From: Bacteroidota bacterium
GTDB lineage: Bacteria; Bacteroidota; Bacteroidia; Bacteroidales; JAAUTT01
Direction: 5' to 3'
Length of the DNA stretch: 64,000 nucleotides
Assembly: GCA_030706405.1 (NCBI GenBank)
Contig: JAUZOO010000001.1
Coordinates: 391,762 to 455,761, forward strand
This document shows positions 43,426-45,098 of this stretch, piece after piece. The notes beneath the pieces are model-generated. The model did not search any database. It was not told the DNA's origin and saw only the letters and a program-made list of their open reading frames with translations. The number at the start of each line of letters is the position of its first letter. Position 1 is the stretch's first letter. The translations under genes were made by a program, and so were the position numbers.

Positions 43426-44019
43426 ATGGAATTTATTGATTCTATGAAATTTAAATTTATAGGAAAAACTAATCAGGATAATTATCCAAAAGAAATTTTG
43501 GAGGATGCCGGAGTTCCTTTTAGCGCTGAGAAGGTTTCTCGGATACACGCCGAAACTACAATTACCGGAACTTTTACCAGTTCCGACAATTTTTATTTTA
43601 ACGGCAGGCTTGTTGGCGATATAAAGCTTGAAAATAAGCTTGTGTTAGGCGAAAAGACCCAAATTATTGGAAATATTTTTGCCGTAAATTTAATTTGTCT
43701 GGGAAAAATAGAAGGTCAGGTCTATGTTAGGGAAAAGGCCATGTTCGGGCGTTCGTCTCAGTTTAAAGGTAAAATATCGGCTCCGGTATTGGAAGTAGAG
43801 AACGGAGCAATTTTTAATGCCGAATGTTTTATGGAGTCGTCAGAAGTACCGGTTCCGGAGCCTGTTGTTTCGGTACGGGAAATTCCTGTTGATAAACCCC
43901 GGGAAAAAATTCCCGAAGAGGTTTCGGTTTCAGCCGAGGAGGTTGAGTCCATTGTGGAAGAAAATTCGGAAATTTCATTTTTGAATGGAATTTTTAGGAG
44001 TAACACTAAAGAAGAATAA
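43426..44019 (+). CDS. Bactofilin (polymer-forming cytoskeletal protein)
   Basis: A 197-residue bactofilin. Residues about 38-140 form the right-handed beta-helix core with recurring short strands: AETTITGTFTSSDNFYFNGR, LVGDIKLENKLVLGEK, TQIIGNIFAVNLICLGKIEG, QVYVREKAMFGRSS. The N-terminal 35 residues are a flexible lead, and the C-terminal 45 are an acidic Pro/Glu/Val-rich tail. Bactofilins self-assemble into nucleotide-free filaments used for shape, polarity or scaffold roles. A second in-frame ATG at 43444 is possible. The actin-like gene starts 38 bases downstream, so the two probably form an operon, joining two cytoskeletal families. Confidence 0.92.
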   Translation: MEFIDSMKFKFIGKTNQDNYPKEILEDAGVPFSAEKVSRIHAETTITGTFTSSDNFYFNGRLVGDIKLENKLVLGEKTQIIGNIFAVNLICLGKIEGQVYVREKAMFGRSSQFKGKISAPVLEVENGAIFNAECFMESSEVPVPEPVVSVREIPVDKPREKIPEEVSVSAEEVESIVEENSEISFLNGIFRSNTKEE

Positions 44020-44057: not shown

Positions 44058-45098
44058 ATGGAAAAATCGGTCATTATTCCCAGTGTCTTTGAAGAAAACA
44101 CGATGGAGTTCTCTAAAATTGCCGAGAATTTTGTCGACGGGATACGCATCGTAAATTTTAACGATAAGGAGTATGTAGTTGGTAATTTAGCCCTTAGAGA
44201 GGGCGTCGCTCCCCACAAACTTATTAATAGTTCGGCGGAAGATATCGATTATCAATTGTTAGCTCTTACTGGACTCGTTACTTCAACGATGGGAACTTTT
44301 ACTAAATTGGTAGTTACTGCCGGTTTTCCCTACACTACTTTCCAGTCGTACCGTAAAAATGCCGAACGTTTCTATCTTGGCCGTCATGAAGTATGTTTTG
44401 ATGCGCGTACGTTTGGCCGTAACGAAGTGGAAAAGATGGATTTCACGGTCGATCAGGTTGATATTATCACCGAAATTGACGGTTGCATCAAAGCTATCCG
44501 TAACAGTGGCGAGAACGACAACTTTTTTATTGCCAGTATTGGCTTTGGAACTTTTGAAACTGCCCTTTCCACACCATCGGGTATTGTTCACCGTACTACT
44601 TACAGCACCAAAGGTATTTCGTATGCTGTAGACCTCACCGAAAGTGAATTGCAAAAGGAACATTATTTGAATCTGTTGACCGACCAGCAAATGGAACGTG
44701 CCTTTCAGCGAGGTTCGATTGTTGCAAACCGTCAGCGGCTTGATCTTACCGATTTAAGGACTAAATCTTTACGTACATATTATTCTGAAGTTATTTCGCC
44801 CGCCCTGCGCAAGAAATTTACCGACGAAGATTTTGTAAATACCGAAAAAATATACCTCGTGGGCGGAGGTGCATTATATTCCGAATTGGTGGAAATGTTT
44901 AAAATTGAATTTGGTTCTATTTTGGATGTAAAGGTATTTCCTAATCCTCACCTTTGTGCAGCAAAGGGTTTTTGCCTGAATTCGATGCAAAAAGCTAAAA
45001 GTATTGCCGATGTTGAAAAGCGTGAGCGCATTGCTTATGTTGGTATCGACCTTGGTAACTCAAACACCGCCATTGTTGTAAATACGCTCGAACAATAA
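44058..45098 (+). CDS. ParM/Alp-type actin-like protein with circularly permuted motif order
   Basis: A 346-residue member of the actin/ParM ATPase superfamily. In ordinary members the phosphate-1 motif (GIDLGN.NT) opens the protein. Here it is at the C-terminus, residues 329-337 (G329, D331, G333, N334, T337), followed only by nine residues. The N-terminus starts at VIIPSVFEE, the segment that normally follows phosphate-1, then YVVGNLAL, LVVTAGFP, phosphate-2-like SIGFGTFETA (160-169, Ser replacing the usual Asp), and the adenosine motif YLVGGGA (266-272). The 38-base gap after the bactofilin leaves no room for a hidden N-terminal copy. Possible roles are filament formation or segregation with the bactofilin; this is inference. 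Confidence 0.85.
   Translation: MEKSVIIPSVFEENTMEFSKIAENFVDGIRIVNFNDKEYVVGNLALREGVAPHKLINSSAEDIDYQLLALTGLVTSTMGTFTKLVVTAGFPYTTFQSYRKNAERFYLGRHEVCFDARTFGRNEVEKMDFTVDQVDIITEIDGCIKAIRNSGENDNFFIASIGFGTFETALSTPSGIVHRTTYSTKGISYAVDLTESELQKEHYLNLLTDQQMERAFQRGSIVANRQRLDLTDLRTKSLRTYYSEVISPALRKKFTDEDFVNTEKIYLVGGGALYSELVEMFKIEFGSILDVKVFPNPHLCAAKGFCLNSMQKAKSIADVEKRERIAYVGIDLGNSNTAIVVNTLEQ

Follow-up and report, generated by a model that had tools for sequence, protein, structure and literature searches.

The open reading frame at positions 44058..45098 (+ strand, ATG start) of the window, the whole stretch of 64,000 nucleotides that was analysed, raises the question whether it encodes an actin-like protein whose chain has been circularly permuted, and what such a protein could do next to a bactofilin gene. 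The product is a ParM/ALP-type actin-like protein of 346 residues whose first residues are MEKSVIIPSVFE and whose last residues are YVGIDLGNSNTAIVVNTLEQ. A first-pass annotation of this DNA had placed the IPSV segment at the N-terminus, the phosphate-1 motif GIDLGNSNT nine residues before the C-terminus and the phosphate-2-like and adenosine motifs in between, and the translation of the reading frame bore out this layout. The new N-terminus (residues 2-12; 44061..44093, +) comprises a predicted strand at residues 2-8, followed by another at 11-13, and the IPSVFE segment, which we take to be strand 3 of the canonical actin order; IPSV itself occupies residues 7-10 and not 6-9 as annotated. It is followed by Glu139 (44472..44474, +), presumably the counterpart of the canonical catalytic Gln/Glu, by the phosphate-2-like loop SIGFGTFE at residues 160-167 (44535..44558, +; placed by column counts and pairwise register), in which a Ser replaces the canonical Asp, and by the adenosine motif GGGA at residues 269-272 (44862..44873, +). 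A linker (residues 315-324; 45000..45029, +) leads from the canonical C-terminal helix to the relocated strand 1; it was delimited with the AlphaFold2 model, in which it is flanked by a helix (297-314) and a strand (325-332), and with the optimum of the profile rotation described below, found at cuts 310-325. The chain ends with the relocated strand1-turn-strand2 hairpin (residues 325-343; 45030..45086, +; predicted strands 325-332 and 336-343), which carries GIDLGNSNT at residues 329-337.

Relatives were searched in 84,980 species genomes with two internal peptide patterns derived from permuted proteins, a design that could miss a canonical-order sister devoid of those peptides. From the 107 relatives found, the best 80 were kept and the other 27 are not in the counts. 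The permuted motif order was present in 80/80 of these loci: in 78 the pattern located phosphate-1 beyond residue 280, and in the two others it was recognized by eye at the same place, as GMDIGNAQT (L054) and GIDIGNAQT (L077). No phosphate-1 pattern was detected in the first 100 residues in any of the 80 loci, in agreement with the annotated lack of an N-terminal copy, and the upstream open frame does not contain GxDxG. Internal stops were absent from all of them (0/80). According to NCBI names, 73 loci belong to Bacteroidota, 5 to Balneolota and 2 to Ignavibacteriota; the gene occurs in cultured isolates (Roseivirga, Cyclobacterium, Belliella, Dysgonomonas, Parapedobacter and Odoribacter) as well as in MAGs. 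The same order was observed in 40 further frames, some of which are one gene fetched twice. An alignment of 69 rows (A2) was built from the window protein and 68 of the 80 loci, 12 near-duplicates being excluded by eye. At the sequence level, every fully readable member has strands 1 and 2, together with the phosphate-1 loop, relocated from the start of the chain to its end.

The Pfam ALP_N profile matched residues 3-138 of the window protein from position 17 of its 148 positions, the front of the profile being absent, compared with a match from position 1 in 9/10 canonical relatives and from position 4 in the tenth. ALP_N was matched by 58/69 members at E ≤ 0.001, and the 12 ALP_N matches obtained in a sample of 296 genomes of the phylum all begin at profile position 16-21; no canonical-order ALP_N protein was found in that sample. 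Pfam ALP_N hides the permutation because its match to these proteins begins at position 16-21. The best PHROG match was a partition protein (E 7.5e-23, residues 4-311). No NCBIfam model passed its cut-off for the window protein, and none was matched at E ≤ 0.001 by more than 11/69 members. A phmmer search of the PDB with the single window protein returned only three weak, unrelated matches (E 0.03-0.9). A paralogue of MreB was rejected, the window protein reaching 15.7 bits against a cut-off of 27 for the MreB profile and the MreB match of the genome lying elsewhere (E 1.8e-120).

The permutation was further analyzed by cutting and rotating the 69-row family profile, in 10-residue steps plus extra points, and aligning it by hhalign with a canonical reference profile of 11 plasmid and phage ParM-type proteins. 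These references were taken from plasmid and phage records because viral contigs contained no match to the canonical ParM of Diaphorobacter. The unrotated profile scored 155.1 and covered canonical columns 42-334. The highest scores, 172.8-173.0, were obtained with cuts at 310-325, and the cut at 320 spanned columns 6-334 of 342. Lower values were recorded with cuts at 280 (160), 300 (168), 330 (164), 340 (155) and 140-170 (92-96). Since the rotation scores best with the C-terminal segment placed first, this part of the chain is in register with the N-terminus of the canonical proteins. The unrotated profile also matched human BiP in permuted order, residues 314-339 corresponding to 21-46, 125-179 to 186-241 and 251-287 to 340-378; these stretches are individually weak (2.0, 7.9 and 6.1 bits, respectively) and agree with the permutation. 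Motif order in all fully readable homologues, profile rotation and the fold comparison given below concur with the circular permutation claimed by the annotation, and sequence and model together support the view that the protein is a natural circular permutant of a ParM/ALP-type actin, the three-dimensional place of the hairpin being inferred.

The AlphaFold2 model built with the 69-row alignment had a mean pLDDT of 90.9 and a pTM of 0.90, and was preferred to the single-sequence model (pLDDT 32.8), which was not used. The C-terminal blocks had pLDDT values of 72 (residues 311-320), 83 (321-330), 92 (331-340) and 75 (341-346). In the Foldseek search, Ta0583 was the best match by E-value (E 1.5e-14), followed by pCBH ParM and Dh-cParM1, Alp7A being at rank 10. 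VIA-align superposed model residues 1-323 on residues 23-369 of Dh-cParM1 (8x1i; Z 27.9, rmsd 2.8, 307 residues) and residues 1-312 on residues 21-349 of pCBH ParM (6izr; Z 26.3, 299 residues). Z values of 20.4-27.9 to ParM, MreB, actin and Hsp70 across model residues 1 to 310-323 identify an actin fold. The comparison with ParM and Alp7 proposed in the annotation gave the result announced by a permutation, residues 1 to about 320 of the model fitting ParM, Ta0583 and Alp7A from about residue 20 of those chains and the hairpin staying unplaced: all 50 VIA-align rows listed end at model residue 310-323 and leave it outside, as a comparison in chain order should do with a permutant. That the hairpin closes into the sheet at the phosphate-1 position is an inference and not a measurement. 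Mean-field coupling was computed on 104 rows (effective number 40), which include single genes read at two frame lengths, the window's own among them. It did not recover the expected strand pairs, 1-4 ranking 80/307 and 2-3 235/308, and is not counted in favour of the permutation; the unexpected pair 2-4 ranked 28/307 and the known pair 4-5 16/306.

In the nucleotide site, G329, D331, G333 and N334 of phosphate-1, E139, G162, G164, E167, G269 and G270 are invariant in 69/69 rows, and so are S9 and E12 of the new N-terminus. The position of the phosphate-2 Asp is occupied by Ser (Ser160 in the window protein) in 68/69 rows of A2 and by Cys in 1/69, compared with Asp in the 11/11 canonical proteins, whose rows were read by eye. 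This residue is important for ATP hydrolysis by actin and ParM. Because it is replaced by Ser, ATP hydrolysis is inferred to be slow or absent, and the filaments would probably be stable and not dynamically unstable, in the absence of any ATPase or filament data. The annotation had not raised this point: the ATP site is not simply normal, since the phosphate-2 Asp is missing in 69/69 members, and with such a phosphate-2 loop no membership among active ATPases is therefore claimed. Among the features of actin-like ATPases, the phosphate-1 Asp, the adenosine GG and Glu139 are present; the phosphate-2 Asp and the canonical order (0/80) are absent.

The distribution of the gene was followed in a first survey of 99 genomes, consisting of the window's own genome, 4 more of its genus and 94 of its order. 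The gene was detected in 5/99. Four copies are intact and permuted (window's genome, G059, G066 and G087); the fifth (L005/L006), in genome G034 of the same order, is interrupted by several stops, and this genome gave no bactofilin match at E ≤ 0.001. The 4/4 other searched genomes of the window's genus lack the gene, and in this genus the permuted actin is thus a patchy accessory gene. At the level of the phylum, it was present in 24/395 genomes (12/171 genera), where 25/26 matches were permuted and the 26th (L122) was a contig-edge fragment that could not be judged. This patchy presence (0/4 in the genus, 5/99 and 24/395) implies that the gene is dispensable. In a quick actin tree, Dysgonomonas and Parapedobacter, which belong to different orders, group together. 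Taken with the patchiness, this placement would suggest horizontal transfer or repeated loss, as judged from sequences; vertical descent has not been shown.

The gene directly 5' of the actin (43426..44019, +) encodes a bactofilin of 197 aa (Pfam PF04519, E 1e-20), the domain reaching 74.2 bits against a Pfam cut-off of 27.9. Its reading frame stops 38 bases before the actin ATG, as had been annotated. The other bactofilin of this genome over the Pfam cut-off is an unlinked open frame of 136 aa. Linkage was counted with an HMM made from linked bactofilins, within 300 bases and on the same strand. A bactofilin was found under these limits in 50/80 loci, downstream of the actin in 40, upstream in 5 and on both sides in 5; the window is of the upstream type. 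None was found within 300 bases in 28/80 loci, including L073 with a bactofilin 1205 bases away, and 2/80 were cut off by a contig end. The homologue search advised by the first-pass annotation thus recovered the same motif order in 80/80 loci and an adjacent bactofilin in 50/80, and this adjacency, seen in both gene orders, backs the proposed partnership. The linked or unlinked label changes at least 7 times on the quick actin tree. The quick tree of the bactofilins has little resolution, and the linked ones may still have arisen only once. Among the 40 largest neighbour clusters, those other than bactofilins occurred in narrow clades only or at scattered positions. In Dysgonomonas mossii (G499; L182-L188), the actin gene occurs at three loci, and at each of them it is preceded by the gene of a short bactofilin and followed by that of a Trp-tailed bactofilin.

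The bactofilins encoded directly downstream of the actin share a feature of their C-terminus. F, W or Y is found in the last two residues of 45/45 of them (loci within L017-L085) and W in the last three residues of 43/45; their tails are long, with 41 distinct forms such as ...PRTW, ...GTVAW, ...NSWY, ...DDWW, ...RFW and ...KNIW. The corresponding figures for an aromatic tip and for W were 2/30 and 0/30 in control bactofilins of the phylum, 1/10 and 0/10 in upstream bactofilins, and 0/5 and 0/5 in five other bactofilins near an actin. The controls are the 30 best-scoring of 48 matches, so that divergent bactofilins are under-represented, and one of them (L169) shares a contig with a permuted actin about 1.2 kb off. 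A Fisher test of the tail comparison gave p 6e-19, kinship being ignored. The window's own bactofilin has no aromatic tip and ends with ...SFLNGIFRSNTKEE. The C-terminal peptide of ParR docks on ParM, according to the accessible part of the source (4a62). By analogy, the aromatic tail is read as a putative docking peptide on the actin, not in this form for the window's pair, and no binding data exist. Of 11 genome entries with unlinked actins, two of which (G087 and G495) seem to be the same genome, 9 have only bactofilins without the aromatic tip and 2 have no bactofilin.

The C-termini of some actins were also unusual. In L053:5980-7272 and L057:5980-7275, which have no linked bactofilin, the actin carries a tail of about 90 residues ending with ...DRLGKFLKTGMW, and in L078:5995-7383 an extension rich in H, E and K lies beyond the phosphate-1 hairpin. 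The extensions past the hairpin in these three loci measure about 90-120 residues. An aromatic residue is found in the last three residues of the actin in 21/28 unlinked (e.g. L046, L060, L067 and L076) versus 18/50 linked loci, the clades being not independent.

Several other explanations of these data have to be weighed. An artefact of assembly or gene calling can be practically dismissed: nothing was found in its favour, and the same order occurs in isolates (Roseivirga, Cyclobacterium, Dysgonomonas and Parapedobacter) and in MAGs, without stops (0/80). The refutation foreseen by the annotation, an assembly error truncating the N-terminus, is excluded by the same agreement across 80/80 loci. 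The protein could also be an ordinary segregation actin (ParM) of a plasmid or phage that has landed in the chromosome, in line with the PHROG partition protein match (E 7.5e-23), the weak matches, at 25-28% identity, to ParM/StbA proteins of three plasmid records and the patchy distribution. This is very improbable in our opinion, as no relative was detected in viral contigs (pattern search) or in 50,697 phage records (tblastn), 72,556 plasmid records yielded only those three distant matches, none of which spans 80% of the query, and the frequent neighbour is a bactofilin. Nor is there any sign of the plasmid or phage location of a ParM segregation system, the window lying in a contig of at least 455 kb and no close plasmid or phage homologue having been found in these searches.

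The two remaining alternatives concern the state of the protein. The C-terminal hairpin might enter the neighbouring subunit, polymerization completing each nucleotide site in a donor-strand manner. A terminal hairpin on a linker of about ten residues, predicted with lower confidence (pLDDT 72 and 83), would allow such an exchange, and the loss of the phosphate-2 Asp would fit a polymer that is not driven by hydrolysis. However, the 3 other rows of alignment A1 have a linker some 7 residues shorter, in favour of a hairpin that closes onto its own chain. The monomer is modelled with good overall confidence and there is no positive evidence for swapping, so we hold this exchange to be improbable. 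A less remote hypothesis, still on the unlikely side, is that of a non-polymerizing pseudo-ATPase, which would regulate the bactofilin as an adaptor with an actin fold, whether or not it binds nucleotide. In its favour, the phosphate-2 Asp is lost in 69/69 members, the gene is tied to bactofilin, a polymer that needs no nucleotide, and the nucleotide-binding domains of Hsp70, which are not known to polymerize, come close to the best Z values of the fold comparison (Z 20-22). Against this hypothesis, 69/69 members keep Asp331, Glu139 and both adenosine Gly residues, indicating that the nucleotide site is under selection, and the best folds are those of ParM-type filament proteins.

The reading that we prefer, and that we consider reasonably probable as a whole, is that of an old, patchily distributed circular permutant with a nucleotide site formed within the same chain, which polymerizes and acts on a bactofilin scaffold; assembly and binding are inferred. 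The C-terminal helix of canonical actins ends near strand 1, in subdomain Ia. A short linker would join this helix to the relocated hairpin, which would close back between strands 3 and 4 and rebuild the nucleotide site in the same chain. The permuted actin would then bind nucleotide and polymerize like an actin of the ParM/MreB class, for which no assay data exist, and Ser in place of the phosphate-2 Asp would result in slow or no hydrolysis and in stable filaments. Bactofilins form nucleotide-independent, usually membrane-associated filaments, according to the part of the source available (PMC12448750), and the actin may act on such a scaffold. In the lineages with a downstream bactofilin, the aromatic tip, usually Trp, could dock on the actin much as ParR does on ParM through its C-terminal peptide; the actin and bactofilin of the window's lineage would have to meet by another route. 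The likely role would be the positioning of an envelope or cell-shape process. A bolder version, put forward only as a tentative possibility, is a previously undescribed cytoskeleton of two polymers, in which bactofilin filaments would hold the permuted actin, devoid of its phosphate-2 Asp, through their aromatic, mostly Trp, tail tip. Unlinked actins could carry such a tail themselves (L053 and L057, which end with ...LGKFLKTGMW), and the strand 2-3 edge of subdomain Ia, left free by the permutation, would be open to new contacts.

A circular permutation is a strong test of the chain connections that a fold and a polymer require, and a natural and widespread permuted actin would allow the folding of actin, its closure around the nucleotide and its filament contacts to be studied without any engineering. 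Bactofilins would gain a recurrent partner of the actin class, with a defined peptide to mutate where the tail tip exists. The annotation knew of no described permuted actin-like ATPase; likewise, no account of a permuted actin or of its bactofilin partnership was found in the literature among the matches listed, subscription papers and preprints being outside the scope of the search. As far as searched, the fold and the descent are known, and the connectivity, the lost phosphate-2 Asp and the bactofilin partnership are new.

Among known systems, a bactofilin scaffold combined with an NTPase system is described in Myxococcus, where, in the part of the source available, the bactofilins BacNOP organize ParABS (PMC5703909); the partner there is ParABS and not an actin. 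FcmB of Nostoc, in the accessible part of its source (PMC12645912), represents a family that descends from the actins of plasmid partition and affects cell morphology. Its NCBIfam model matches 7/69 permuted members weakly (best E 8.7e-5); FcmB is cyanobacterial, and no mention of permutation, Bacteroidota or bactofilin was found in that part of the source. CorM of Anabaena (9rmi; Z 25.4) is alike in fold and also cyanobacterial, and it pairs with CorR as far as the available part of the source indicates. Ta0583, the Thermoplasma actin homologue (2fsj/2fsk; Z 25.2), is alike in fold too, its residues 19-325 matching residues 1-312 of the model; its N-terminal hairpin has no counterpart at the front of the model. 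The ParM/ALP actins (Dh-cParM1, 8x1i; pCBH ParM, 6izr; Alp7A, 5ec0) have a similar fold (Z 22.8-27.9 over 299-307 residues) and have the phosphate-1 and adenosine motifs in common with the permuted family. Unlike them, the permuted family, of which no close plasmid or phage copy was found, has strands 1-2 and phosphate-1 at the C-terminus, a replaced phosphate-2 Asp and a bactofilin neighbour in 50/80 loci.
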